This document shows, in pieces, positions 807 to 31,856 of a DNA stretch of 35,462 nt (positions within the stretch are counted from its first letter, which is position 1; each line of letters starts with the position of its first letter). Source of the stretch: a virus; the IMG/VR virus record IMGVR_UViG_3300035179_000039, positions 1-35,462 of that record; one strand, given 5' to 3'. The notes under the pieces are model-generated. The model did no database searches. It was given only the letters and a program-made list of their open reading frames with translations, and was not told the DNA's origin. The position numbers and the translations under genes are program-made.

Positions 807-3800
807 GTGAAAGTGGTTAGACCAACCTTCGCATTCGGGTCGACAAGCCGACAAAGAGCCCACGACCTGCGAGACACTGCAGTCAGCAGCAAAGCCTACA
901 TCGACTCCATCTACCCATGGTGGTGGGACGAACGAGAGTTTCCCCGAAGAGCGGTCATGACCGAATGGTTCTACAATCCGCTCAAAGGCCAGCCCCGCTA
1001 CGTCGACGTCTACCATCTCCGAAACATGGCCGCAAGCGAATGGGTCCACATGTGCACAAGCACCATCATCGAAGAAGTGTGTCAAGTCCCCTGGGAGCTG
1101 GTGCCCAAACGCCCAGAGCTACGTGAGTCGCCGCCCGAACAACTCCTCTGGCAGATAGAGGATCAGACCGAATTCTTCAACCGCTGCAACGAGAACAAGG
1201 AAACCCTGACTCACATCTTGCGAGCCCTGCTTCGAGACAGCCTGGAGCTGGACGCAAGCTGCCTCGTGAAAGGCTTCAGCGAACGCAGCTATGAACGGGT
1301 GCCAGAGGGCGGCTTTATCCTCAGACCCCGAGGCCAGCGAGAACTTGTGGAGCTGTTCGCTCGAGACGGCGGCAGCTTCATGAAGGAAACGGACGTGAAC
1401 GGCATCGAGCGCCGCTTCTGGCAGTACTCGTACCTGCACCCGGCCGTCGCCCCGATCGAGTTCGACACAGATGAGATCGCCTACGGCACGCGATATCCCC
1501 GCAGCTACAGCGTCTACGGCTGGTCCGAGCTGCAGAGCATGGAGACGATTCTGAACTGCCTCATCAACAGCGCTTTCACCAACGCCACCATGTTCCAAGA
1601 ATACGCCGTGCCCTCGGGCGTCATCAGCTTCCAAGGCTCTCTCGAGGACGAACGTAGGCTCAAAGAGTATTTCACCACCGAGATCAAAGGCCGCTTCCAC
1701 AAAGTGGCCGTGCTCAACAAGGACGCCACCTTCACGCCCATCACCATGTCGAACCGAGACATGGACTTCATCAACATGCAAAAGTGGTTTAGCAGGCTTT
1801 GCTGGGCTCTGTACAAGCTGACGCCGACCGAGCTGGGCTTCCAAGACGAGATCCGAGAAACCGGCAAGGCGATGGCTGCGCAAAGCAAACTGCAGAAACG
1901 GAAGGCCGTGATGCCTGCGCTCAAGCTGATCGAGATCGTGATCAACACGCAGGTCCTCAACGAGTTCACTGACGACCTGATCTTCCAGTTCCAGTACACA
2001 GACAAAGAAGAGGAATACGCGTGGGACGAGCTGTCACTCCAGCAGCTTGACCGAGGACTCGTCACAATCAACGAGCTGCGCAAGCGCCGGAAAATGGGTG
2101 CGCCAGTCGGCTGGGGAGACCTGCCTTTCCAGCTCACCCTTGCAGGAGCTCGGCCGCCAGCCATGGGCGCACCGCCTGGGCAGCAGTCTCTCGGAGAAAC
2201 CGACATGCAGGACAACGACATGGGCAAGCAGGTGTGGGGCGGCCGCAGCACCGAAGAATACGACTTCCGAACAGACATTCCTCAGAACGTTCGCGCGTTG
2301 AACCCGTCCAGCGGTCGCTACGAGCCAGTGAAGATAGGTAACAAGTTTGACAAACGTGAACTTGAGAAAGCCGTGAGCCTCATCGAGAAGAGCTTTCAGT
2401 ACCGTCTGCAGGCGCCCCGAAAGAAGCCGCTTGACCCCTACGAAGTGCACCTAGTGCAAAACCAGATCGCCAGGCTCAAAGCGGCGATCGGAAAGATCCG
2501 CTACCCCATGGGCGCCCTAGGACCGATGGGCACCAAGCCCGACCCGCCCAGTCGAGACGGCATGCTGCTGCCGGGCGAACAGAAGCCTCGCGACGTCGAG
2601 AAGCCTCTTGGACCGAACCAGACTCCAGCGCCTTACCGCACCGGACCCTACGATCGATACCGGGGCGGAGAACAGCCAAGTAACGAGTTTGCAGGCGGAC
2701 ACGGAGCGCACAGGTGGGAAAGAGACAACACGAACATGCGAGTCAAGCCTAGCGAACGAACGGATCCACGTGGCCTAGCACCGCCTCGGAAGCCCACAGT
2801 GCCTTATCTTGACGCAGAATACCAGATCGTGCCCACGCCGAAGATTCCAGTCGGACCCAAGTACCCCCGAGACGTGCCCCCAGTGCACGGCGCCACAGGC
2901 ATGCCTCGCAAGCCTCTCACAGACGAGGAAGAAGGCGACCAAGTGGATGAGTTCACTCCTGAGGGTGTGAGGCCGAAGGGATGGGTAACTATTGGCGGTC
3001 GGCCTGTGCTCATCGGAGAAGAAGATGAAGACGGAGCGGAAGCAGGAAAAGCGCCAAAAGGCACCAAGCTGGAAGGCACCTATTACCGAGGCAGCACCGA
3101 TGGCAAATATCGAGAGTTCAGCTACTTCACCAAGGAGCAAAGGGAAGCGCAGGTGTACGCTGAGGCGAAGGGCGGCAAGGTGTCCGAACACGATATCAAG
3201 GCGCAGAATGCTTTGAAGGCAAACGACATCTGGCACGCGGGAAAGAAGCTGGGCATTCCATTCGACCGAGACAAAGATGACCCTACGAAGGTGCGGCTGC
3301 AAATTCTGAATACCGCTAAGAAGCAAGGCTACGATGCCATCGATATGGACACTTGGACTGTCGCTATCAAACCTGATGTGGTGAAAGAAACTCGAATCTT
3401 GAAGACCAAGATGACTCCGCCTCTGCCGAGCATGGGCGGCAGCAAGTACCGTCAAGTCAAATTTCTTCGTTCAATCATGCCTGAGAAGCTGGGGCTGTAC
3501 GTGGAGCCTTTCGCAGGCGGCGCCGCCCTGTTCTTCGGGCTGCCTGAGAAGCCTGCGCAGGCGGTGCTGAACGACAAGGACCCGTCTTTCCCTACGTTGT
3601 GGCGATGGATCCAGCAAGCCACACCGGAGCAGATCGAGGACCTAAAGAAGCGTCCATGGACGGCTGAGCGAGACGACTTCTTCCGGGCTAAGGACGAGTT
3701 CAAGCCCCGCAGCCTTCTTGACCGGATCTGGCAGATCCTGTACGTTACGAGACATAGCTTCAGGAACAGCAGGCGCACTTGGCGAGGCGAAGACCGAAAA

Positions 3801-4544
3801 GGCACTCACAGAAACGGCATGCCGCAATGGATCAACAGGATCGACCAGTACCGGGAGCGGTTGCAAGGCGCCACGATTGAAAACAAGGACTGGAAAGAAG
3901 TCATGCAAGAGCACGATGGGCCGGACACGTTCTTCTACATTGACCCGCCCTATGAGCAGGAGTTTGCTAGGCAGCTGCCGGCGGTGCTGGACCGAACCAA
4001 GGGCAAGTGGCTGCTCAGCTTCGGAGAAGACGAGACGCTGCAGCGAGAGCTGGAGAAACGAGGCTTCCACGTCAAGGCGCTGAACGTCACCAACATGATC
4101 AACAAGCCTGATGCAGCCACACGCACCATGCGCCAGGAGATGCTGGCCGCCAACTACCCGCTCGAGTTCGATGGCGACGTCACCTTCAAGTTCGTGGACA
4201 CCGACGTCAGCATGAAACAGCTGTTCTTCTCTGAGGGACGCGTGGTGACCAAAGGCGTGCATGACCATGAGCAAGCCCTCTCAGACAGATTGAAGCTGCT
4301 GATCCGACAGGTGCACACCGGCGCCCTAGGAAAAGAGCAAGCAGCCATCGAAGCCAAAGCAGCGATCGACCACCACATTCTGCAGGGCGTGAAAGAGGCG
4401 ACTGAAAGCGCCGTCGCCCGACAGCTCAAGAAGGAGCAAGTGACCTTGCCGCCGGAAGCCATGGCTCGAATAGAACGCCAGGCGGCGCAGCACATGGAAG
4501 ACTTCATGCGAATCTTGGGAGATGCAGAGAATGCCCAAAAGTAG
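807..4544 (+). CDS. Portal fused to ART-like domain, D12 adenine methyltransferase and helical tail
   Basis: A 1245-residue protein starting with GTG at 807 (MKVVRP). Residues 1-440 look like a portal protein: the stretch FSRLCWALYKLTPTELGF followed by a long helix KAMAAQSKLQKRKAVMPALK is the usual portal stem and crown signature. Residues about 440-745 are a Pro/Gly-rich linker. Residues about 750-865 resemble the ADP-ribosyltransferase-like domain of phage polyvalent proteins (TYYRGS, FSYFT, a conserved-looking QNAL, KKQGYDAIDMD). Residues about 875-1130 are a D12-class DNA adenine methyltransferase, with EPFAGGAALFFG (SAM binding) and YIDPPYE at 3939-3956 (catalytic DPPY). The last 95 residues are helical and may be the N-terminal part of a MuF protein. 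An ordinary portal is roughly 400-550 residues. No frame break is seen, so this is either a true fusion or a precursor cut by the prohead protease. Confidence 0.88.
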   Translation: MKVVRPTFAFGSTSRQRAHDLRDTAVSSKAYIDSIYPWWWDEREFPRRAVMTEWFYNPLKGQPRYVDVYHLRNMAASEWVHMCTSTIIEEVCQVPWELVPKRPELRESPPEQLLWQIEDQTEFFNRCNENKETLTHILRALLRDSLELDASCLVKGFSERSYERVPEGGFILRPRGQRELVELFARDGGSFMKETDVNGIERRFWQYSYLHPAVAPIEFDTDEIAYGTRYPRSYSVYGWSELQSMETILNCLINSAFTNATMFQEYAVPSGVISFQGSLEDERRLKEYFTTEIKGRFHKVAVLNKDATFTPITMSNRDMDFINMQKWFSRLCWALYKLTPTELGFQDEIRETGKAMAAQSKLQKRKAVMPALKLIEIVINTQVLNEFTDDLIFQFQYTDKEEEYAWDELSLQQLDRGLVTINELRKRRKMGAPVGWGDLPFQLTLAGARPPAMGAPPGQQSLGETDMQDNDMGKQVWGGRSTEEYDFRTDIPQNVRALNPSSGRYEPVKIGNKFDKRELEKAVSLIEKSFQYRLQAPRKKPLDPYEVHLVQNQIARLKAAIGKIRYPMGALGPMGTKPDPPSRDGMLLPGEQKPRDVEKPLGPNQTPAPYRTGPYDRYRGGEQPSNEFAGGHGAHRWERDNTNMRVKPSERTDPRGLAPPRKPTVPYLDAEYQIVPTPKIPVGPKYPRDVPPVHGATGMPRKPLTDEEEGDQVDEFTPEGVRPKGWVTIGGRPVLIGEEDEDGAEAGKAPKGTKLEGTYYRGSTDGKYREFSYFTKEQREAQVYAEAKGGKVSEHDIKAQNALKANDIWHAGKKLGIPFDRDKDDPTKVRLQILNTAKKQGYDAIDMDTWTVAIKPDVVKETRILKTKMTPPLPSMGGSKYRQVKFLRSIMPEKLGLYVEPFAGGAALFFGLPEKPAQAVLNDKDPSFPTLWRWIQQATPEQIEDLKKRPWTAERDDFFRAKDEFKPRSLLDRIWQILYVTRHSFRNSRRTWRGEDRKGTHRNGMPQWINRIDQYRERLQGATIENKDWKEVMQEHDGPDTFFYIDPPYEQEFARQLPAVLDRTKGKWLLSFGEDETLQRELEKRGFHVKALNVTNMINKPDAATRTMRQEMLAANYPLEFDGDVTFKFVDTDVSMKQLFFSEGRVVTKGVHDHEQALSDRLKLLIRQVHTGALGKEQAAIEAKAAIDHHILQGVKEATESAVARQLKKEQVTLPPEAMARIERQAAQHMEDFMRILGDAENAQK
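1910..1931 (+). repeat. 22-bp direct repeat, copy in portal gene
   Basis: These 22 bases, coding for the portal segment MPALKLI, recur exactly and in the same orientation at 33643-33664, upstream of the fibre-like gene. A match of this length is not expected by chance in 35 kb. Confidence 0.85.
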
Positions 4545-4838: not shown

Positions 4839-6020
4839 TTGAGGAACCGCCGTGAAAGGGTGCCTTGGAGTGTGCTACATATAGCTGAAGAACCGGATTT
4901 CTGGAAGAGCCTAGATGGGCTGCTGATGCGCATAGATCTGCTGGCGCAGAACCTCGCCTGGAAGTCCTACAACGAAGCCATGCAGGAAACCCTGCGCTTC
5001 GAAGGCGTCACCTGGGTGGAATGGGTCTCAGACTACACGCAGGACCCGGCGAGAGGACCATGCCTCTACTGTGATTCGCAGTCCGGACGCCGCTACCGCC
5101 TAGGCCAGTTTCTGCCTTCGCTGCCTCATCATCCGAACTGCCTACCGGGGAACGCTCTTGTATCGTCCAGTCACAGGATCACGGGTGCTACGAAACGGGC
5201 ATACGATGGAAATGTTCTCATCATCCAAACAGCCACGGGTGACCCTCTTTCCGTCACGCCAAATCACCCTATACTCACACCGCATGGATGGGTTCCTGCC
5301 AGCTTCCTGAATAAAGGCAGCTACGTAGTCTGCCAGCGCAGAAGTGAGTCTATCTTGTCCAGTAATGGGAATCATCAACAGATGCCAACCCCTATTGAGA
5401 ATGTAGCGAATGCGTTTCTCATGATGCCGACGACGCTTCGCAGCAAAGTGCCAACCGCCGCCAAAGATTTCCATGGCGACGGACGGAACGGCGAGGTCGC
5501 AATTGTAGGGACCAATCGCCACTTGATGCCTAACAGAGATGCCTCGGTCAACAAGCATCTGCGCAAATTGGCGTTCATGGAGAGAGATGCCGCTCTGATG
5601 GGTCTCCACAGTCTTGGCCAATTGCAGTTTCTCAGAAAGACTCTTCTTTCGACCACGAGTAGCATCATGAGCCGCACGAACCTGTGCAGCTCGTTGCTCG
5701 GGATTCATCTGGCGCCATTTCAGGAGTCCTGCTTCATGGCGACCACGGATCGGTACGTTGGCTTGAATCAGACGCGCTCGAACCGTTCCTCGGTCGACCT
5801 TGAAGTGCTTCGAAACCTTCTTCTCCGAGATGCCGGAAACATATTCTTTGATGAGATTGTCGATGTCGGCTGGAGAAAGTTTCATGGTCACATCTACAAC
5901 TTAGAAACATCGGCGGGCTATTTTAACGCTTCCGACATAATCGTCTCTAACTGCAAGTGTGACTGGGCTCCAATTCTTCCGACAGAAGAGGAATATGTTC
6001 GCAAAGGCATATTTCCCTAA
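4839..6020 (+). CDS. MuF-type minor head protein interrupted by an intein
   Basis: The 393-residue precursor carries a 271-residue intein (5139-5951). The spliced product would be 122 residues ending in the MuF/SPP1-gp7 signature: CLYCDSQSG, then LPSLPHHPN joined to CKCDWAPI. In this family the HPNCxC motif closes the fold of the minor head protein that sits at the portal vertex. The start is uncertain: TTG at 4839, or GTG at 4860 preceded by a GAGG at 4841. The ordinary family N-terminal helices are not here; the end of the portal fusion may supply them. No membrane segments. The antisense strand of the intein encodes a nuclease (5142-5885). Confidence 0.88.
   Translation: MRNRRERVPWSVLHIAEEPDFWKSLDGLLMRIDLLAQNLAWKSYNEAMQETLRFEGVTWVEWVSDYTQDPARGPCLYCDSQSGRRYRLGQFLPSLPHHPNCLPGNALVSSSHRITGATKRAYDGNVLIIQTATGDPLSVTPNHPILTPHGWVPASFLNKGSYVVCQRRSESILSSNGNHQQMPTPIENVANAFLMMPTTLRSKVPTAAKDFHGDGRNGEVAIVGTNRHLMPNRDASVNKHLRKLAFMERDAALMGLHSLGQLQFLRKTLLSTTSSIMSRTNLCSSLLGIHLAPFQESCFMATTDRYVGLNQTRSNRSSVDLEVLRNLLLRDAGNIFFDEIVDVGWRKFHGHIYNLETSAGYFNASDIIVSNCKCDWAPILPTEEEYVRKGIFP
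5139..5951 (+). other. Intein (Hint-domain protein-splicing element), 271 residues
   Basis: Cys1 is at 5139-5141, opening block A (CLPGNALVSSSHRITG). Block B contains TPNH at 5256-5267 followed by PILTPHGWVPA. The C-terminal blocks are FHGHIYNLETSAGYFNASD and IIVSN, with Asn at 5949-5951, followed by the +1 extein Cys at 5952. The penultimate residue is Ser and not the usual His. There is no LAGLIDADG domain in the sense frame. The central region holds KDFHGDGRNGEVAIVGTNR, which I recall as characteristic of inteins in phage MuF proteins; that recollection was not checked against a database. The endonuclease appears to be supplied by the opposite strand. Confidence 0.9.
5142..5885 (-). CDS. 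Vsr/DUF559-like homing endonuclease encoded antisense within the intein
   Basis: About 247 residues from ATG at 5885 (a GTG two codons upstream, at 5891, is possible); a GTGA sits just upstream as a weak ribosome site. Residues about 8-50 form a helix-turn-helix (GISEKKVSKHFKVDRGTVRA), followed by a basic linker. Then comes a PD-(D/E)XK/Vsr-like core: SLHERQFAQMLVDRG, HQVAIGPYNCDLAV and SVAMEIFGGGWHF, with candidate catalytic Glu in LHERQ, Asp at 5496-5498, Glu at 5469-5471 and a following His, and a basic helix (KRRRHHEKRIRYILNRGW). The C-terminal YRVIWRDGKRVTRGC is a further strand pair. The whole gene lies inside the intein, its codons exactly opposite intein codons. Vsr-like (EDxHD) nucleases are known homing enzymes. 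Confidence 0.85.
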   Translation of the reverse strand: MKLSPADIDNLIKEYVSGISEKKVSKHFKVDRGTVRARLIQANVPIRGRHEAGLLKWRQMNPEQRAAQVRAAHDATRGRKKSLSEKLQLAKTVETHQSGISLHERQFAQMLVDRGISVRHQVAIGPYNCDLAVPSVAMEIFGGGWHFAAKRRRHHEKRIRYILNRGWHLLMIPITGQDRLTSALADYVAAFIQEAGRNPSMRCEYRVIWRDGKRVTRGCLDDENISIVCPFRSTRDPVTGRYKSVPR

Positions 6021-6076
6021 GACATCTCTCAAGTGAGTTTCCGGATGCCTCTCCAAGAGAGAAACAGAAACCACAG

Positions 6077-6340
6077 GTGCCATATCCATCCGCCGTCCCT
6101 GTGAACGGACAAGAAGTCTCCGTGGGCGGGGTACAGGTGAGGCTCCCAGCCAAAGTTTATGCCGATCTCAAGTCGCTCAAAGGTGAAGTGCATCGAGAAA
6201 GGCTTATGCAGAATGACCAGCTTCATTTGATTTCAAGCAGCTCCCTACTCAAGGCGAGGAGAGTTAAGGCAGTTGCGATCGCAGGCAAGGCGGCCCAGAG
6301 AAAGGCGGCGACAAGGTACAGCGGCAAAGGCACTGCGTAG
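6077..6340 (+). CDS. Hypothetical protein after the MuF gene
   Basis: An 87-residue reading frame from GTG at 6077, ending 3 bases before the convergent minus-strand block. It has a Gly/Val-rich start (VNGQEVSVGGVQVRLPAKVY) and a strongly basic C-terminus (KARRVKAVAIAGKAAQRKAA). It might be a DNA-binding head protein, but I recognise no family. The start is weakly supported, as there is no clear ribosome site; the end position, just at the strand switch, makes it credible. Confidence 0.5.
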   Translation: MPYPSAVPVNGQEVSVGGVQVRLPAKVYADLKSLKGEVHRERLMQNDQLHLISSSSLLKARRVKAVAIAGKAAQRKAATRYSGKGTA

Positions 6341-6343
6341 GGC

Positions 6344-6436
6344 TCAAGCCCGGTCAAACCTTGTGCCCCCACAGTAGCTGCAACGCGGCTGAGCATACAC
6401 GTAGTGAGTGCCACAACGCCTACACTTGAAAACCAT
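6344..6436 (-). CDS. 30-residue zinc ribbon
   Basis: Encodes MVFKCRRCGTHYVYAQPRCS and then YCGGTRFDRA, a minimal CxxC-n-CxxC zinc ribbon. Its ATG overlaps the stop of the upstream gene (TGATG), so it is the last gene of the minus-strand operon. It may be a protein- or nucleic-acid-binding module. Confidence 0.7.
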   Translation of the reverse strand: MVFKCRRCGTHYVYAQPRCSYCGGTRFDRA

Positions 6437-6603
6437 CAAACTTCACCTGTGTGAAACGGCGGGAAGAGCCGTTTCAGAAGCTGGTCAAACTCACGCACCG
6501 CATCCTTGGCCTGAGTCAAACAATCTTGGTAGTACTGGCAGGGTTGGCATTCGGTGAGACCAAATTCCTTGCAGCCCACAATTTCCTGCGGCGTCCTTTT
6601 CAT
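6436..6603 (-). CDS. 55-residue four-cysteine protein
   Basis: Begins at ATG 6603, seven bases after an AGGTGA ribosome site that includes the stop of the ASCH-like gene. The cysteines in VGCKEFGLTECQPCQYYQDC could bind zinc or an iron-sulfur cluster. The remainder is a helix ending KRLFPPFHTGEV. No family recognised. Confidence 0.65.
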   Translation of the reverse strand: MKRTPQEIVGCKEFGLTECQPCQYYQDCLTQAKDAVREFDQLLKRLFPPFHTGEV

Positions 6604-6610
6604 CACGCTT

Positions 6611-6964
6611 TCACCTTGCCTGTTCCTTGCCCCGCGGGGTCCTTATGGGCTGTTGTGTGTCACCGCCAGACAGACAAGCCTCTTCTTTCGCAAGCCGAAG
6701 TAGCACAAAATCGTCAAAGTCTGGGCCGTACCACTTCTCCAGCAGGGCGATCACCTCTTCCCGGGAACACTCACCATCGCTCCTAGCTAGGTCCTCAGTG
6801 ATGTCCGCCTTTCGGATAGGTGTGCGCTCAATCACCATTGTGCGGAAGCGCTGTTTGGGGCTACGAATCTTCGGACGAGCGCCAAGCTGATAGAGGCGAG
6901 TGTTCTTGCGGATAGTGGTGAACACGGGCCGGGAGAGCTTGGCGTACTCTCGAGTGAACCTCAT
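6611..6964 (-). CDS. ASCH/PUA-like domain protein
   Basis: A 117-residue protein. The start chosen is the ATG at 6964, which follows directly on the stop of the preceding gene (TGAGATG). The N-terminal part (RFTREYAKLSRPVFTTIRKN) followed by a beta-rich stretch and ADITEDLARSDGECSREEVI matches the layout of ASCH domains, in which a short helix-rich end follows an RNA- or modified-nucleobase-binding barrel. The C-terminal 20 residues are a disordered basic tail. ASCH proteins are common small genes in viruses of archaea and bacteria; some act on modified nucleosides. Assignment is by pattern only. Confidence 0.65.
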   Translation of the reverse strand: MRFTREYAKLSRPVFTTIRKNTRLYQLGARPKIRSPKQRFRTMVIERTPIRKADITEDLARSDGECSREEVIALLEKWYGPDFDDFVLLRLAKEEACLSGGDTQQPIRTPRGKEQAR

Positions 6965-6965
6965 C

Positions 6966-7151
6966 TCAGGAAGCCTCTTCAACCTCAATTTCCAAGATGA
7001 AGAAGGGATATCGCTTCCCTTGTTCTTTCCGCATTTCAGTCATCTCTGCCAACTTCTTTTCTGCCAACTCTTTCGTAGAGTAAGTGCCCATCAAATAGGT
7101 AGGATCGCCAGCGAAATGCGGTGATTCACGAATCTGGTAGACCTTGAACAT
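6966..7151 (-). CDS. 61-residue hypothetical protein
   Basis: Begins MFKVYQIRESPHFAGDPTYL and continues with an amphipathic helix (TKELAEKKLAEMTEMRKEQG) and a closing strand (PFFILEIEVEEAS). The alpha/beta pattern resembles small proteins that report a measured or displayed value, as seen in many phages, but no function can be assigned. It sits within the minus-strand operon, 2 bases before the ASCH-like gene. Confidence 0.7.
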   Translation of the reverse strand: MFKVYQIRESPHFAGDPTYLMGTYSTKELAEKKLAEMTEMRKEQGKRYPFFILEIEVEEAS

Positions 7152-7156
7152 CTATC

Positions 7157-7471
7157 TCAAGCCTCTTTGTCAACGGTGAAGTGGAACTTGTCTGAGTAGC
7201 CGCACTCCGCAACCTTCCTACGCAGCTTGAGCCACTGCCATCGAAGCCACTCCAGCATCTGGAGAAAGCGCAGCCGCCAAATCAGGCGTCGCCACCAAGA
7301 CTTGCTGTCGTACCAGTACCGGCCGAACCGGGTGGCAGGGTCGCCCCAACTGCACGCCAAAGCCGCCCTGCCGAAAGGAACGCCCTTCAGAAGGTCCCGC
7401 TGGAAAGCTCGTTCAGCGTCTGCGCGGAGCTTGATCTTTCGGCACAGATCCTTCCTTCGCTGCCTGCTCAT
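7157..7471 (-). CDS. Basic Trp/Arg-rich hypothetical protein
   Basis: A 104-residue protein starting at an ATG that overlaps the stop of the preceding gene (ATGA at 7468-7471). It is highly basic and tryptophan-rich in the middle (WWRRLIWRLRFLQMLEWLRW), which could form an amphipathic membrane-associating or nucleic-acid-binding helix. A longer frame exists upstream to 7489, but the ATGA junction supports the start given here. No family recognised. Confidence 0.65.
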   Translation of the reverse strand: MSRQRRKDLCRKIKLRADAERAFQRDLLKGVPFGRAALACSWGDPATRFGRYWYDSKSWWRRLIWRLRFLQMLEWLRWQWLKLRRKVAECGYSDKFHFTVDKEA

Positions 7472-7704
7472 TCCTTCAAGAACCCCCATCTCTCCATAAT
7501 TCTGTTGACTACGCCGCTCACCAAGTGCTTCATGCGGTCATAAAGGGATGCTTGATGTCGGCAGCGCTGGACATGGCTGAGAAATATGCCACAAGGCGTG
7601 TCTCGAGGAAAGACTTGTCCGCAGGTTCTGCAGGAGCGGTCCTTCTCGAGTTTCCATTTACTCGGCAAACCCCATCTGTACTCCGTCCAGCCGCTCCGCA
7701 TCAA
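7468..7704 (-). CDS. C2H2-type small zinc-finger protein
   Basis: Up to 78 residues. Contains CRTCGQVFPRDTPCGIFLSH followed by VQRCRH, that is CxxC with downstream His and Cys/His ligands, a zinc finger likely to bind nucleic acid. The start is uncertain. ATG 7704 would overlap the previous gene by 47 bases; a TTG further in ([12 protein letters not shown]) would give a short overlap. Confidence 0.65.
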   Translation of the reverse strand: MMRSGWTEYRWGLPSKWKLEKDRSCRTCGQVFPRDTPCGIFLSHVQRCRHQASLYDRMKHLVSGVVNRIMERWGFLKE

Positions 7705-8368
7705 TCTTCTTCAGGTGACGCCGGCGCTCATAGTCCTCTAGAAAGCGCACATGGTTGACCTGTGTATCTCCCGGCGTGATGGCTTTGTCCAGCTGCACCT
7801 TCCGGTAGCCAATCGTCCACTTTCCTTCTCCCGCAGAAATCGGGTCCACGGGGTAGAAGCGTCCGCCCATGAACCACTTCAGCTTCAGCCGGTGCTTCTC
7901 CGCCACCAGTTCGGCTTTCACAACTGCCTGGGTGATGGAGTCTCGAACTTCATATCCGCCGCCGAGAGTGTAGCTGCCGCACGCACGCTGCACCGATCCG
8001 GATGCTTCCACGGTTCCAGCTACGTCTAGGCCGTCCACGAATTCCTTGTGAGCTTCCTCGCTGAAGCCTTCTGGAATGATGGTGTCGACCGTGAAGTATG
8101 CAAATACTTCAAGGCTGCCCTCGGGCGCCAAGGTGACAGGCTTCTTCAGCTTCTGTCCAGTGTTCACATTGTCTCGCTGGAAGATCCTGCGGATACCTAT
8201 GTGGTCGCCTAGCAGCACCGAATCTTTCCAGCAGAGCTCTTTCAGGATGCCCGCTGGGACGGTGCGATTTACGCCAAGGCGCCCAGCTTCCTTGCTGAAG
8301 CGGTCCCTTGTGTAGATGCGGCTGGTCACAATGGTCAGCCAATACTCGTATGTCTGAGAGTCCATCAT
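7658..8368 (-). CDS. 236-residue conserved-looking protein of unknown function
   Basis: Starts at ATG 8368, which overlaps the AbrB stop (ATGA) and is preceded by GGTGACCGC. The N-terminal half contains [30 protein letters not shown] and [15 protein letters not shown], which look like a small beta-barrel, perhaps of ASCH/PUA type. The middle has a Gly-rich segment with two Cys-adjacent turns ([15 protein letters not shown]), and the end is charged. It is the longest gene of the minus-strand block and is directly coupled to the AbrB regulator. I cannot assign a function. Confidence 0.75.
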
Positions 8369-8538
8369 GCGGTCACCATTCCGACGCAGGCCCCGATCCA
8401 CACGTCGCCATCCTTCAAGACAAAGGCGATCTTGTCTCCGGTCTTCAGCTTCAGCCGGTCGCGCACGTCCTTGGGGATGGTGACTTGGCCCTTGCTCGTG
8501 AGCTTTGCCAGCCCAATCACTTTCTGCTTCTCAGTCAT
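8365..8538 (-). CDS. AbrB/SpoVT (MazE-like) swapped-hairpin regulator
   Basis: A 57-residue protein with the hallmark [19 protein letters not shown] and then [17 protein letters not shown], the complete AbrB-family DNA-binding domain, which dimerises to bind DNA. Such proteins act as stand-alone regulators in archaea and their viruses or as antitoxins. The next gene is not toxin-like, so a regulator is more likely. It overlaps genes on both sides (start overlap with 8531-8644, ATGA stop overlap with 7658-8368). It may act on the promoter region at 8789-8817. Confidence 0.88.
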
Positions 8539-9284: not shown

Positions 9285-9390
9285 GTAACGATTCAGCCTC
9301 TTTTTGTGGGTAATTCGCCCAAAAACAGTTCAGATATGGCCCCTAGGCCCATTACTTCTCTGTTCAAGTCATAGAAGGAGAGGAAACGCT
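9285..9390 (+). promoter_or_regulatory. Leader region of the head-tail operon
   Basis: A non-coding stretch with a TATA-like CATAAAATA just before it, two short inverted repeats (GGGTAATTCGCCC at 9308-9320 and GGCCCCTAGGCCC at 9338-9350) and a strong ribosome site, GGAGAGG, at 9378-9384. It probably holds the promoter and leader of the structural genes. A related GGGCCCTAGG occurs at 26494-26505. Confidence 0.4.
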
Positions 9391-10404
9391 ATTCCTGAAA
9401 GACCGCCCAAACGGTGGTTCCGACAGACTCTGCGTGACGTCAAGCAGAGCCTGCGCGAGGCTCATCCTGACTGGAAGCCTGATACGGTTACGGAGCGTGC
9501 TCAAGCCACAGTCGGCGATGTCTGGCACAACAAGCTGGACGAAAAGAAGAAGCGAGAGATTCTCCGGCGAGAAGAGAAAGGAATCGGAGAGGCCCAGGTG
9601 GCGGTCGTTCGAATGCTCATGAGCCTGAAAGGGCTGCAGGAAGAGTTCGAGAAAGAGCGCCGAGAACACATGACCATGAGCGACCAACAGGTCGCGCAGA
9701 TAGTGCGGGACCACGCCACTCGAGCGGGCATGGGCCGTGAGGCAGCGGAATGGTCGCCGGCCCGAACCAAGAGCTTTCGCCCCATGGTCTCGAGACGATA
9801 CGCGCTCTTCATGCCTGCCAGACTCAAGACGGTCGGGGATCCACACACCGGCCAAGTCTACGTCGAGGGGTACATCAACATGCCTGTCAAAGACTTGCAG
9901 GGGGACCTTCTTGAGCTGCCGGCGCTGCATCAAGCCCAAGTGGCCATGATTCAGCCGCCTCACAACCTTGTCTGGCTGGACCACAAGTCGCCCTATGCAA
10001 GCCCGATGTACAATGATGCTCCACCGATCGGCCGATTCATCAAATCCAAGATCGTGAAGATAGGGTCGACGCCGGCGCTTTGGGCCCGCATGCTCATGAA
10101 CAAGGCGCACCCCGACTTCCAGCGCACCTTCTACGAACTCAAAAACAAGTTCCGCAATGCCTTCTCGATGGAGTTCATTCCTCTTCCTGGCTGCGAAGTG
10201 CTGAAAACCGTGGGCGACAAGATCGTGAACGCCATCAGCGGCATCAAGTACTTCGCAACTTCACTCGTGCGGGCGCCTGCCAACGAGGGCGCGACTACGA
10301 CTCGCGTCTATGTGAAGGCGTTCGCTAATTCATCCAAGTTCTGTCCAGTGCTGCTCAAGGGAGTGGGCTGGACCGGACAAACTGTAATGAAAAGGAGAAA
10401 ATAA
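9391..10404 (+). CDS. Prohead maturation protease
   Basis: About 337 residues. A Trp-containing N-terminal domain (KRWFRQTLRDVKQSLRE, ATVGDVWHNKL) precedes a protease core: YVEGYINMPVKDLQGDLLEL, then NLVWLDHKS with the candidate catalytic His, and FRNAFSMEFIPLPG with the candidate catalytic Ser. This order (His strand, then Ser in an SxEF-like motif) fits HK97-type (S78/XkdF-like) prohead proteases that cleave scaffold and capsid precursors. No ATG, GTG or TTG is well placed. ATT at 9391 lies seven bases after the strong GGAGAGG, so an ATT start is proposed; GTG 9304 is the farther alternative. It directly precedes the scaffold-like and capsid genes. Confidence 0.8.
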   Translation: MPERPPKRWFRQTLRDVKQSLREAHPDWKPDTVTERAQATVGDVWHNKLDEKKKREILRREEKGIGEAQVAVVRMLMSLKGLQEEFEKERREHMTMSDQQVAQIVRDHATRAGMGREAAEWSPARTKSFRPMVSRRYALFMPARLKTVGDPHTGQVYVEGYINMPVKDLQGDLLELPALHQAQVAMIQPPHNLVWLDHKSPYASPMYNDAPPIGRFIKSKIVKIGSTPALWARMLMNKAHPDFQRTFYELKNKFRNAFSMEFIPLPGCEVLKTVGDKIVNAISGIKYFATSLVRAPANEGATTTRVYVKAFANSSKFCPVLLKGVGWTGQTVMKRRK

Positions 10405-10406
10405 CT

Positions 10407-11147
10407 TTGAAAACCTTTCGATTCCGAAGAAAGGACCCAGATCCAGACCCTGACCCGGACCCTGATCCGGATCCCGATCCCGATCCCGATCCTGACCCTG
10501 ATCCTAGCTTCCCTGCTGAAAGACGGGACTTCGACCGCCAAACAGGCACCACCGCAGCCGAGCGGGCTTCAACCGGCTTGGGCGAGTGGGGAGATCCCAT
10601 CCAGCGAAGGGGGGGCAAGGTACCAGGAGAGGAAGAGGAAGAGGAGCTGGAAGAACGAGTCAAAGGACTGGAGACAATGATGGCAACAGTAGCAAAGAAC
10701 ATGGCAGTCATGGGTAAAGGACTCGGAGTGATAGGCAAGGCACTGGGCGTGCCGATCGATGTCAAAGGCATCGATGAGGACACGCTGGAAATCTTGGGCG
10801 AGAAAACCGCCTCAACAAGTCTTGAAGAGCAGGACTTTGGAGAGGTTGTGTACGGCCCCATGGGCAAGCCCAAGAAGCAGCGCGTCATCACCGCCATAGA
10901 GTCAGACGACCCTGGGGTTGACGAAGTGGACACGCAGGAAATCGGAGCCAAAAGCCTCGGACGATTCGTCGTGAAACTCGTCAGGAAGACGATAGGCGAC
11001 GAATTGGCTAGGCAGCGAATACTCCGGAAAGGATTCAACGAGGAATCCGGACCTATGCCTGAAGGCATCAGAGCAGCTCAACGCATCGCTAACGATGACG
11101 GCTCAATCGAGAGCCAGCTTGACATCATCGACGCATACAGAGGTTGA
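10407..11147 (+). CDS. Scaffold-like acidic protein with an Asp-Pro repeat
   Basis: A 246-residue protein from TTG 10407, with GGAG upstream at 10395. After a basic start (MKTFRFRRK) there are twelve Asp-Pro dipeptides in a row, then an acidic coiled-coil-prone region (EEEEEELEERVKGLETMMAT), a hydrophobic helix (KNMAVMGKGLGVIGKALGVP) and a charged C-terminus. Acidic, coiled proteins between protease and capsid genes usually act as scaffolds that are degraded during maturation. That role is inferred from position and composition. Confidence 0.65.
   Translation: MKTFRFRRKDPDPDPDPDPDPDPDPDPDPDPDPSFPAERRDFDRQTGTTAAERASTGLGEWGDPIQRRGGKVPGEEEEEELEERVKGLETMMATVAKNMAVMGKGLGVIGKALGVPIDVKGIDEDTLEILGEKTASTSLEEQDFGEVVYGPMGKPKKQRVITAIESDDPGVDEVDTQEIGAKSLGRFVVKLVRKTIGDELARQRILRKGFNEESGPMPEGIRAAQRIANDDGSIESQLDIIDAYRG
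10434..10505. repeat. Hexanucleotide tandem repeat (GAYCCN x 12)
   Basis: Twelve units of GAY-CCN encode the Asp-Pro run of the scaffold-like protein. The third codon positions vary (GAC/GAT, CCA/CCT/CCG/CCC), so the peptide repeat is kept while the DNA has drifted, which argues for selection on the protein. Confidence 0.85.
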
Positions 11148-11153
11148 TGAAAG

Positions 11154-12515
11154 ATGGCAGCTACAGATCTAAGTGAGCAGGCTTTGAGAATGCAACTGGC
11201 GCACCCCGCGTACCGCGACAAACACATGTCGCCTCAACAGGTCGCTCAGCTGAGAGAAGCGTTCCAATTCAAGCCCGTTCAAGTCGCTCAGCCAGGCTTC
11301 TCGCCCACCCTCAAACAAGTGAGGGCGGTGGGCTTCGGCCCAGACGAGTCAGCCCGCTGGGAGCAGATGGCCCGTCTCATGGTGGGTCCCGCGGCTGTGC
11401 CAGACGGCACACCGATCTATTTGGGACTCAACGGACGATGGGTCAAGGACCCTCTGACGGGCCGCATTGTCACTCGAGACGACTTCCGTCAAGGCTTCTG
11501 GAAGTGGACTAGAAACGGCATTCAGGCGCCTCAGCTACGCACCAAAGGCTACCTTGACTCCACGGCAGCCATAGTGCACACCACGACCGACCAGGAGATC
11601 ATCGACACGACTCGGAAGGAATGTCCGATCATGGAGCTTGTTCCGCAGGAAACTTCCCGGGGCAAGGTCGCATCATACGACATTCTGACGGCTCGTGCCG
11701 CAGCCATATTCACCACGGAGACAGTCAGCACCATCACGCCGGGAGATGACACGTACAAGAACGCCACGAAGACCATCGGCATCTTGATCTCGCCAGGCGG
11801 ATGGACCGACGTCGCCATAGCCACGATGGGCAGCCAGTACCCGAGCCGAGATGCGAGGGCGCTGGAAGTCCGGAACAAGACTTGGAGCTTGAACGAAGCG
11901 TGGGAGAACGAGATCCTGAACGGGTCTTCAAGCCTGGGAGCCTCTTCGAACGGCTTCGTAGGCATCCGTGCGGAGATCTACACCACGCAGACCGTGGCAG
12001 GCTTGCCTTCTGGTGAGGCTGATCAGAACTACGACAAGAACAACAGCGACATTGACGACACGGATATTGACAAGGCGATTGCAGACGGAGCATCTCGAAA
12101 CGTGAAATACAACCTGTGCATAACTGACCTGTGGACTTGGCAGAAAATCAAGCAATTCATGATGGGAGTCCTCATGTATGTGAATCCGGAAACGGAGATC
12201 GCGTGGGGACTGAAAGCGCTGGCTTGGCATACGCCCTACGGCACAATGCCGATAGTGGCAAGCAAGTTCATGCCTGTGACAGCGGCCGCTCGTGAAGTGC
12301 TTTTCTTGGACACCAAGTTCCTCGCCCAAAGAATGCTGTTGGACTCGACCATGGAGATGCTTCCGAAAGCAGCTTTGAGTCAGCCGTTTGTCATCAAGAA
12401 GTTCGCCAACATCATCGATAAGACTCAGGCATACGCGCAGACATACAACAACAACAGCTGGCCCGTCACAACGACCGGGACCTCGAAGATGGCCCGGATC
12501 TACGGGATCGCATAG
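11154..12515 (+). CDS. Major capsid protein, HK97 fold
   Basis: A 453-residue protein. The N-terminal about 150 residues are a helical, Gln-rich segment (MSPQQVAQLREAFQFKP) of the kind cleaved or used as an internal scaffold. The core contains IVHTTTDQEIIDTTRKECPI, a strand-rich middle with WTDVAIATMGSQYPSRDARA and NEAWENEILNG (spine helix), and a C-terminal P-domain with MPIVASKFMPV and EVLFLDTKFLAQRMLLDSTM. This layout is that of phage and archaeal-virus HK97-like capsids. It lies between the scaffold-like gene and the connector genes, as expected. Confidence 0.85.
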   Translation: MAATDLSEQALRMQLAHPAYRDKHMSPQQVAQLREAFQFKPVQVAQPGFSPTLKQVRAVGFGPDESARWEQMARLMVGPAAVPDGTPIYLGLNGRWVKDPLTGRIVTRDDFRQGFWKWTRNGIQAPQLRTKGYLDSTAAIVHTTTDQEIIDTTRKECPIMELVPQETSRGKVASYDILTARAAAIFTTETVSTITPGDDTYKNATKTIGILISPGGWTDVAIATMGSQYPSRDARALEVRNKTWSLNEAWENEILNGSSSLGASSNGFVGIRAEIYTTQTVAGLPSGEADQNYDKNNSDIDDTDIDKAIADGASRNVKYNLCITDLWTWQKIKQFMMGVLMYVNPETEIAWGLKALAWHTPYGTMPIVASKFMPVTAAAREVLFLDTKFLAQRMLLDSTMEMLPKAALSQPFVIKKFANIIDKTQAYAQTYNNNSWPVTTTGTSKMARIYGIA

Positions 12516-29787: not shown

Positions 29788-30364
29788 CGCACCCCCGACA
29801 AAAACCCCCACAAAAGATGACGGCAAAAAAACCACCCCGCCACTCCGAACCAGACAAGACAGAGCCTACCGAGCCTGGCAACTCCACCTCACAGGCACCC
29901 CCGCCCACATCATAACCCAAAACCTCAAAACCCTAGGCTTCAAATGCAGCCAACGAACCATAGAACGCGACCTCTCCGACATGCGAGCCAAACGCCAAAT
30001 CGATCAGGCTACGAAACCCGACCTGTACAAGCGTGACCTGGCTCAAAGCGTGGACGAAAAGAAAGGCCTGTTCAAGAAGCTGCAGGAAATTGTTGAGAAG
30101 CCTGCGCGGTTCGATGAGGAAGGCAACGAAGAGGACCGAAGCTTTGTGCAGGTCCACGCAATCAGAGCGGCCACGGTGCTCTCTCGGGATCTGGACCGCC
30201 TGTACGGATTAGACCTGTCAGCCGTGAGGATGAAACTAGATGAGCATGAGGCAGCAATCGCAAGTCTCCAACAGGCTCTTGCAGCAAGAAAAGGACCTGC
30301 AGCAAATCAAGGAGCAGATAGCGCGAAGCCAAGCTCTGGAAGCCCTGCACCAGGACCCAGTTGA
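29774..30364 (+). CDS. terS: Terminase small subunit
   Basis: A 196-residue protein. After a Pro/Lys-rich start, residues about 35-75 form a helix-turn-helix (RAYRAWQLHLTGTPAHIITQ, then LGFKCSQRTIERDLSDMRAK) that would recognise the packaging site. A central coiled region (YKRDLAQSVDEKKGLFKKLQ, VHAIRAATVLSRDLDRLYGL) fits oligomerisation, and the C-terminus, rich in Ala, Pro and Ser, would contact the large subunit. It overlaps the large-subunit gene by 125 bases. Confidence 0.8.
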   Translation: MTKNDAPPTKTPTKDDGKKTTPPLRTRQDRAYRAWQLHLTGTPAHIITQNLKTLGFKCSQRTIERDLSDMRAKRQIDQATKPDLYKRDLAQSVDEKKGLFKKLQEIVEKPARFDEEGNEEDRSFVQVHAIRAATVLSRDLDRLYGLDLSAVRMKLDEHEAAIASLQQALAARKGPAANQGADSAKPSSGSPAPGPS

Positions 30365-31856
30365 GTGGGCCCTGCGCTGCCGCATCCTGAAAGGCGCAGC
30401 GTTCACCTTCCAAGACCGCGACTATCTCCTGCCGATCTACCGGGATCCGCACCGGCGAGTAGTGGTGGCCAAAGCCCGGCAGATGGAGATGACGGAGTGG
30501 ATCGTGAACTGGCTGCTCTACCAGCTGACCACGAACCCCAACACCACGGCGATCTACACGGCTCCCAGAATGGATCAGGTCAGCCGCTTCAGTCGAGACA
30601 GGCTCAGAAAAGCGATCTGGGACAGCCCCGTGCTCAGGCATGTGGTGATTGAGTCTAAGGACGTGGAAGGGCAACCGGCCATCAGCCGCATACCCTTCGA
30701 CAACGGCTCCCTCTGCTACATGTACTCAGGCTGGGGAGACTTCAGCGCCATAAGAAACATACCGGCAGACTTCGCAGCCGTAGATGAAGCCCAAGACGTT
30801 TCAAGCGAAGCCTTACCAGTCCTGACAGAAACTATGGCTCACAGCAGCTTCGGCCGCATGGTCATAGTGGGCACATCTTCAGACGCAGGCTCACAGTTCG
30901 ACCAGCGCTGGCAGGAAAGCGACATGAAGGAATGGGACTCAGACGCTAAGGCGTGGGTTCCTCAAAAACCCCAAAACCGCAGCTACAGCGGCTACCACAT
31001 GACGCAGGAGATGGCCGTGTGGATCACAAAGCTGCCGCCCGAAGACGTCAACAGCATTCCCTACAAGCGTGCGCACTACTTGCCCCGCCTCTTCCAAAAT
31101 GAAGTGCTCGGCCTGTTCTACCGAGGCTTAAGGAAACCTTTGATCACGCAGGACCTGATGGAGTGCCGAGACTTTGAGTCAACCATGTTCCAAGCCCTCA
31201 ACGCGCCCTATGTCTCGTATGCCGGGATCGACTGGGGCGGCGGAGAATTCTCCTTCACCCTGATCTGGATCATGGCGATGGACGAGCTGGATCGATGGCG
31301 CCTGCTCTATGTGCACAAGTTTGACGAGCGCGACCCAATGAAACAGGTCGCCACGATCGGCAACCTGATCAACCTGTTCAACGTCAAGCAGGCCGTAGCT
31401 GACATGGGTTATGGCGCTGTGCAAGTCTCGGAGCTGCAGAAGAAGTTCGCGGATCGGGTCTTGGGCTGCCACTACATCAGGCGCCCCGAGCTCCCGCTCG
31501 AAATGAAGCACCGGGACGAAGCTGGAGAAAGAATCGCCCAAATGATCCTGCTCGCAGACCGCAGCTTCTGGATCGAAACCGCTCTGGACGTGATCAAACG
31601 CACCGGCCCAGACGGCAAACCTACGCCTCGCCTAGTCCTGCCATGGCAGCGGCCGGAAGAAGTGGAGTGGCTCATCGACCACTTCACGTGCCTAGAAATG
31701 GAAGAGCAGGAAACCGTCGCCGGCAAGAAATATCACCACTACACGCATCCGGAAGGCCAACCGGACGACGCTTATCATTCATTCGTTTATGCTCTGATTG
31801 CATACCACGCCAGGAAGATGGGTCATGAGCTAGGCGTGGTGGATCTGTTCGGATAG
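30240..31856 (+). CDS. terL: Terminase large subunit
   Basis: A 538-residue protein. The ATPase has a deviant Walker A (VVVAKARQMEMTEW, about residues 74-87), Walker B FAAVDEAQDV (residues 178-187, Asp182-Glu183) and a coupling motif MVIVGTSS. The nuclease half has VSYAGIDWGGGEF (Asp331), AVADMGYGA (Asp388) and QPDDAYHSFVYALIA near the end, the acidic triad of RNase H-like terminase nucleases. The Walker A lacks the usual GK(T/S), as in a subset of RQ-x-E terminases. ATG 30240 overlaps the small subunit by 125 bases; the conserved-looking part begins near residue 35. Confidence 0.92.
   Translation: MSMRQQSQVSNRLLQQEKDLQQIKEQIARSQALEALHQDPVEWALRCRILKGAAFTFQDRDYLLPIYRDPHRRVVVAKARQMEMTEWIVNWLLYQLTTNPNTTAIYTAPRMDQVSRFSRDRLRKAIWDSPVLRHVVIESKDVEGQPAISRIPFDNGSLCYMYSGWGDFSAIRNIPADFAAVDEAQDVSSEALPVLTETMAHSSFGRMVIVGTSSDAGSQFDQRWQESDMKEWDSDAKAWVPQKPQNRSYSGYHMTQEMAVWITKLPPEDVNSIPYKRAHYLPRLFQNEVLGLFYRGLRKPLITQDLMECRDFESTMFQALNAPYVSYAGIDWGGGEFSFTLIWIMAMDELDRWRLLYVHKFDERDPMKQVATIGNLINLFNVKQAVADMGYGAVQVSELQKKFADRVLGCHYIRRPELPLEMKHRDEAGERIAQMILLADRSFWIETALDVIKRTGPDGKPTPRLVLPWQRPEEVEWLIDHFTCLEMEEQETVAGKKYHHYTHPEGQPDDAYHSFVYALIAYHARKMGHELGVVDLFG

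Follow-up and report, generated by a model that had tools for sequence, protein, structure and literature searches.

An uncultivated tailed virus, with bacteria or archaea as hosts, encodes a portal protein fused to a DNA methyltransferase. The stretch analyzed here is IMG/VR virus record IMGVR_UViG_3300035179_000039, positions 1 to 35,462 (35,462 nucleotides; the window), and the fused gene lies at 807–4544 on the plus strand. We propose, with a probability of about one half, that the portal provides a cargo slot inside the head and that the methyltransferase held there modifies the viral genome and so guards it against restriction, acting most likely ahead of packaging or in the course of it. 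The observed basis is a single reading frame, intact motifs and fold, presence or absence of the enzyme between near-identical viruses, and two positions of the enzyme within the portal frame.

The gene is one intact frame of 1245 codons with a GTG start and no internal stops, and the fusion is explained without any frame error. It encodes, in order, a portal domain, a proline-rich linker, a weak ADP-ribosyltransferase (ART)-like segment, a D12/Dam-type DNA methyltransferase and a C-terminal helical bundle (Table 1). Profile searches matched PF04860 at residues 169–427 (E 5.8e-19, 68.9 bits against a cut-off of 39.1) and phrog_2662 at residues 44–515 (E 5.4e-33). The PDB portal 8q7d_p was matched at E 2e-12, and the portals of related viruses are 68–72% identical across 415 aa. 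A score above the cut-off and a place among terminase and capsid genes identify the protein as a portal. Proline makes up 13.5% of linker residues 461–735 versus 5.6% of the portal, and alignment gaps show that linker length varies strongly among relatives. Portal and methyltransferase together make the product a polyvalent protein, in the sense of a virion-linked chain that combines at least two domains with disparate activities; ART as a second effector is insecure. The initial annotation had read portal, ART-like and D12 modules in one 3.7-kb frame. Its portal and methyltransferase score above their cut-offs, and its ART-like module is weakly supported. It overlooked the helical bundle that ends the frame and the next gene, which is a MuF gene with an intein.

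The methyltransferase is complete, and its activity is predicted. PF02086 was matched at residues 878–1051 (E 1.8e-20, 74.2 bits against a cut-off of 22) and phrog_56 at residues 866–1129 (E 8.9e-47). Motif I, VEPFAGGAAL, is encoded at 3501–3530 and DPPY at 3942–3953; EPFAGGAAL and DPPY are invariant across three aligned enzymes (window, L001, and L005). Residues 735–1245 were modeled with AlphaFold2 from a 22-row alignment. The methyltransferase blocks have a predicted local distance difference test score (pLDDT) of mostly 89–98, with dips to 61–65. The predicted enzyme aligns with Escherichia coli Dam over 224 residues (VIA-align Z 21.5, root-mean-square deviation 2.5 Å) and with 7m6b over 233 residues (Z 22.8). 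Fold and catalytic motifs are therefore common to the window enzyme and the Dam, DpnM, and T4 Dam family, but the enzyme misses the cut-off of the Dam subfamily TIGR00571 (70.2 versus 114.85 bits). The motif that we take to contact GATC in Dam was not seen in the window methyltransferase. Searched alone against a phage collection, the methyltransferase matched 232 records, every one below 60% identity.

Relatives were collected from IMG/VR by scans with the full protein and with a portal alignment. Ten contigs were found, most of them fragments. Nine are distinct, which with the window gives ten distinct viruses; L006 comes from a second sample, is 99.99% identical to L005, and was omitted from alignments. 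The portal frame carries the methyltransferase in the window, in L005/L006, and in L001, and it does so with a frame break in L013. L005 has the order portal, methyltransferase, helical bundle in one 1513-aa frame, and the L001 portal-methyltransferase frame is 1113 aa. The portal frames of L002, L003, L004, L014, L015, and L016 lack the enzyme, and these six contigs have no PF02086 match. A PF02086 search of the 11 contigs, some possibly fragments, detected no D12 domain outside the portal frame except in L013, where the second part of the interrupted copy lies outside it. Portal and methyltransferase share a frame in 15 records of a wider profile check (155 sources, 2420 frames); each of these is the window, L001, L005/L006, L013, or one of the same contigs fetched again. 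A scan with the L005 methyltransferase gave 32 loci.

The fusion is therefore real and recurring, since it is found again in the related contigs L005/L006 and L001. The alternative raised with the initial annotation, that relatives always keep these modules as separate genes, was not found: every D12 match lies in a portal frame or in its broken L013 continuation. An assembly or frame artefact that joined separate genes is next to negligible. The window contig does have a frame switch in its protease-scaffold gene near 10404, but 807–4544 requires no such switch, and the independent contigs L005, L006, and L001 refute an artefact in substance.

Presence of the enzyme differs between viruses that are otherwise nearly the same. 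Portal and linker of L004 and L005 share 94.8% identity over 3146 nt, beyond which the two sequences diverge, with the enzyme in L005 only. For L001 and L002, identity is 91% across 1661 nt of portal, and again one of the two, L001, has the enzyme. Because near-identical relatives lack it, the enzyme looks like a swappable cargo module. Its place is ahead of the helical bundle in the window and in L005/L006, and beyond the bundle in L001 and L013. The L015 portal frame (5199–8432) translates to a Cys-rich insert (CATCPYMK...CTEIK...CCDHW) ahead of the bundle, at the place of the methyltransferase in the window and L005; it is possibly another cargo. L014 and L016 have a scrambled stretch of the portal N-terminus near 6980–7075 that disrupts the frame close to IYPWW or MTEWF. 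A short motif resembling ERKEHPxFxxxQIxQIVxDH is present in the portal linkers of L002, L005, and L015, at 9649 of the window in the protease-scaffold gene, and in the L013 contig (L112, minus strand, 2114); it is perhaps a shared docking element. A repeat-like linker motif was not shown in other genes by a pattern scan of the window.

The four portal-borne enzymes form one clade with support 100/100 in a maximum-likelihood tree with 35 other viral D12 enzymes, taken out of 79 fetched besides L018. The part after the frame break alone represents L013 in the tree and in structure alignments. The structure alignment was made without L098, L099, L015, and L029 (an L024-like near copy). Since the four enzymes share one fully supported clade, the simplest account is a single acquisition with later moves and losses; the alternative is several gains from one source. 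The L001 and L005 methyltransferases are 49% and 53% identical to that of the window. Between L001 and L005, differences at first, second, and third codon positions are 80/48/155 over 263 methyltransferase codons and 88/54/198 over 411 portal codons. Their concentration at third positions, as in the portal, points to purifying selection on the methyltransferase protein. GC content at third codon positions in the window is 0.78 for the methyltransferase and 0.76 for the portal, and this match argues that the enzyme is not a fresh foreign insert there. By these sequence comparisons, the enzyme has been retained long and under constraint.

The same data bear on the view that the methyltransferase is a passing cassette, inserted without any role in the virion, tolerated at a flexible site and now being lost. 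Patchy presence and the L013 frame break fit that view, as does a short FQRI(I/L)DDAR stretch encoded on both sides of the enzyme in L001, a possible trace of rearrangement. It is very improbable nonetheless, given one clade, long divergence from the window enzyme, and purifying selection. The L013 frame break lies in a run of nine G at about 9430–9445, for which sequencing error, decay, and a phase-variable switch are candidates.

D12 enzymes are joined repeatedly to head-assembly proteins, with the portal as one more anchor. Viral D12 enzymes were fetched by alignment (80 loci of 411 confirmed, so that further portal-borne copies may exist among the others), and 64 are in extended frames; removal of L018 and eight frames open at an end left 55 complete extended frames. 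Among the matches listed for these, the XkdF (Peptidase_S78_2) capsid protease is joined to D12 in 33 frames. Other listed domains are DNA ligase (five), Lactamase_B_2 metallo-beta-lactamase (four), inorganic pyrophosphatase (one), Tad3 (one), and MuF (one); none of the 55 has a listed portal match at E ≤ 0.001. D12 and XkdF share one frame in L020, L026, L034, L049, L050, L053, L054, and L057, and further examples are L060, L061, L064, L069, L070, L072, and L088. L034 (1162–5628) is a 1488-aa frame with four D12 stretches, the XkdF protease, and Tad3, which inhibits Thoeris defence. L090 (818–2587) is a 589-aa frame that starts with D12 and ends with Phage_Mu_F, an independent head-protein fusion. 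In L019, L021, L022, L025, L053, L063, and L068, D12 is combined with an ATP-dependent DNA ligase and/or a metallo-beta-lactamase, mostly in very long frames. No phage-collection record covers 80% of the D12-XkdF protein L045, a hint that fusions of this type lie mostly outside isolated phages.

The helical bundle that ends the portal frame is conserved in an alignment of eight relatives. Its three helices were modeled mostly at pLDDT 83–96, falling to 56 at the last residues. The bundle matched no family profile at E < 0.01, and its assignment as the N-terminal half of MuF was made from the layout of phrog_2662 because a direct family match is lacking. The phrog_2662 profile has 717 positions, of which the window portal spans 30–455. 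Positions 622–703 are matched by a small gene that follows the L001 portal (9371–9667, 98 aa), where PF04233 (Phage_Mu_F) scores below its cut-off. This gene is the homologue of the MuF-like gene of the window. A MuF domain is thus not in the same chain as the portal: the portal frame has just the bundle, and the next gene carries MuF. This arrangement suggests a split portal-MuF with inserted cargo, and the window group likely keeps the helical MuF half on the portal gene.

Portals are rings of 12 subunits with a C-terminal crown facing the capsid interior. Under the reading favored here, the long flexible C-terminal arm of the portal would be a cargo slot, flanked by the portal core on one side and by the helical half of the split MuF on the other. 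Given the ring geometry and the inward crown, up to 12 enzymes could therefore stand at the DNA entry point. The enzymes would be produced late, together with head proteins, and progeny viral DNA would be methylated before or during packaging. Methylated DNA would then reach the next cell already protected from restriction. A stronger form, which we regard as unlikely, is a packaging-coupled marking machine. Here portal-tethered enzymes would modify the passing genome, so that only encapsidated DNA is marked and the host chromosome stays unmarked, and the arm would be a general, quickly exchanged slot for anti-defence cargo.

Several points weigh against the cargo-slot reading. We infer the production of the full chain, its head location, the virion content, and the marking of viral DNA throughout. 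The enzyme is dispensable, being missing from six of the ten distinct viruses, and in L013 it is broken inside motif I. Palindrome avoidance tracks enzyme presence imperfectly, with GATC or GTAC clearly avoided in only two of the six enzyme-less contigs, and was given little weight for that reason. Palindrome counts over 10 contigs gave no pattern dividing enzyme-bearing from enzyme-less contigs. The contigs of L014 and L016 strongly avoid GTAC (observed-to-expected ratios 0.37 and 0.33) and mildly avoid GATC (0.73 and 0.75); the ratio for CGCG in the window is 0.52. GTAC avoidance in these two enzyme-less contigs, together with CGCG avoidance in the window, suggests restriction pressure in the group.

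The fusion could instead be one of convenience, in which location is irrelevant and either unassembled portal subunits or a product started at an internal Met would act in the producer cytoplasm like an ordinary phage Dam. In favor of this view, all four enzymes retain a Met at the start of the methyltransferase (KM.PP or KM.SP), but no Shine-Dalgarno-like run precedes it in any of the four. In relatives that have the enzyme, it is always in the portal frame, and viral enzymes of a comparable kind are joined to capsid protease or MuF; both observations suggest that location matters. We consider a convenience fusion quite unlikely.

The ART-like segment bears on whether the portal delivers an effector. 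PF18760 (ART-PolyVal) was matched at residues 752–847 (E 0.0018, 19.5 bits), below its cut-off of 31.2. ART-PolyVal catalytic residues are H, Y, and D of strands 1, 2, and 5 (PMC5512222). In a 4-row alignment of the window segment, R replaces H, Y is kept, and the last strand has no evident acidic residue. Modeled alone from these four rows, the segment has a pLDDT of 61.5. Comparison of this separate model with solved structures gave no ART match, and the model is so poor that nothing is excluded. The AlphaFold2 prediction of residues 735–1245, which covers a region whose modeling was proposed with the initial annotation, recovered the Dam fold of the methyltransferase and gave the ART-like part low confidence. 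The segment had no match as a query against phages and three weak loci among viral contigs (L098–L100); an alignment query found one locus, on the contig of L098. There, L098:4918–9372 is a 1484-aa frame with DnaJ-like and weak ART-PolyVal matches, the nearest relative found for the segment. Among the ten distinct viruses, only the window has the segment. ADP-ribosyltransferase-like is the furthest label that these weak matches and models can support, and the segment may, tentatively, be a remnant or accessory domain beside the methyltransferase cargo. The earlier suggestion of an injected ART effector is poorly supported, with a sub-threshold match, no recognizable catalytic triad, no fold match, and one virus in ten.

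Injection of the methyltransferase itself is possible, if on the unlikely side. The head protease would free the enzyme, with the ART-like part, from the portal arm, and the product would be ejected with the DNA and act in the new host. A probable head maturation protease-scaffold gene is nearby, and portal- or MuF-fused ART, Nudix, and 2H domains are treated as injected in the literature (PMC9503650, PMC5512222); injection has likewise been suggested for P1 DarB and for polyvalent proteins. The portal remains in the particle, however, and release requires cleavage, for which no site is shown. The protease activity itself rests on one partial match, and methylation of progeny DNA before packaging would make injection unnecessary for protection.

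The protease-scaffold protein of L001 gave that partial match, to phrog_1028 (E 2.2e-5), and the neighboring gene probably encodes the head maturation protease. In the window its frame switches at 10386–10420, at a run encoding (DP)n, for which error, slippage, and a real break are candidates. The intein at 5139–5951 sits exactly ahead of the conserved Cys in the MuF motif and matches intein-bearing IF-2 and Tes models. In relatives, some 2 kb separate the large terminase gene from the portal gene downstream of it. Scans of genome contigs with portal and terminase alignments gave no relative that would indicate a host. Halovirus portal matches and the IF-2/Tes intein matches are weak hints of an archaeal host.

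Table 1 Coordinates and supporting evidence for features of the window
Feature	Position	Strand	Evidence
Whole fused gene	807..4544	+	1245 aa, GTG start
Portal domain, about residues 1–460	807..2186	+	PF04860, phrog_2662, 8q7d_p, relatives' portals
Pro/Gly/charge-rich linker, residues about 461–742	2187..3032	+	Pro content, alignment gaps
ART-like segment, residues 752–847, weak assignment, window only	3060..3347	+	PF18760 below cut-off
D12/Dam-type DNA methyltransferase, residues 869–1128	3411..4190	+	Profiles, motifs, predicted fold
Three-helix bundle at the C-terminus, also conserved in relatives; probably the N-terminal half of MuF	4251..4541	+	AlphaFold2, alignment of 8 relatives, phrog_2662 layout
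MuF-like head gene, intein-interrupted	4839..6020	+	phrog_15127 head protein E 1.9e-47; PF14890 E 2.9e-5
Intein at HHPN|C site of MuF domain	5139..5951	+	Profile matches, insertion site
Probable head maturation protease and scaffold, two frames (9304–10404, 10407–11147)	9304..11147	+	Alignment; one gene in L001, L005
Major capsid protein (SU10_MCP)	11154..12515	+	Profile match
Large terminase (GpA_ATPase)	30240..31856	+	Profile match

Portal-MuF fusions are known from Microbacterium phage clusters EA and EB (PMC7302621). HSTV-1 gp3 and HRTV-28 gp9 of haloviruses, of the phrog_2662 kind, are annotated as portal plus C-terminal MuF in one chain. All of these resemble the window protein in having an N-terminal portal, C-terminal MuF material, and a place by terminase and head genes. 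Unlike them, the window has MuF proper as a separate gene, and its group has enzymatic cargo between portal and bundle or after the bundle. Enzymes have also been described on head proteins: PBECR, 2H, and InPase fused to portal, MuF, or capsid protease (Iyer and colleagues 2017; PMC5512222), and ART, Nudix, and 2H fused to head proteins (Iyer and colleagues 2022; PMC9503650). MuF-VIP2, a MuF-fused ART, is present in Microbacterium phage Percival and missing from the related Floof (PMC7302621). These fusions are alike in their portal, MuF, or protease anchor and in being optional between close relatives. Unlike the fusions in the published portions available, the window cargo is a D12 DNA methyltransferase. 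P1 DarB is a methyltransferase in the phage head that is thought to protect DNA in cis (PMC5512222, PMC12810830). DarB and the methylase-helicase dyad pair a methylase with an SWI2/SNF2 helicase and are not portals, whereas no helicase family was matched in the window protein at E up to 0.5. Also related in concept are the MuF toxins that temperate phages carry (PMC5576092). No D12 methyltransferase as portal cargo was found in the available portions of the open-licence PMC literature, a scope that leaves out preprints and figures. The novelty is the D12 methyltransferase as cargo; the portal or head-protein scaffold is of a kind already known.

If the enzyme works in place, it would couple anti-defence DNA modification to packaging, unlike free phage methyltransferases and P1-type internal proteins. 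Its effect is open to testing in the near-identical pair of L005, which has the enzyme, and L004, which lacks it. The many D12-XkdF frames among the matches listed suggest that head-borne DNA methyltransferases may be common, and little noticed, in uncultivated viruses.

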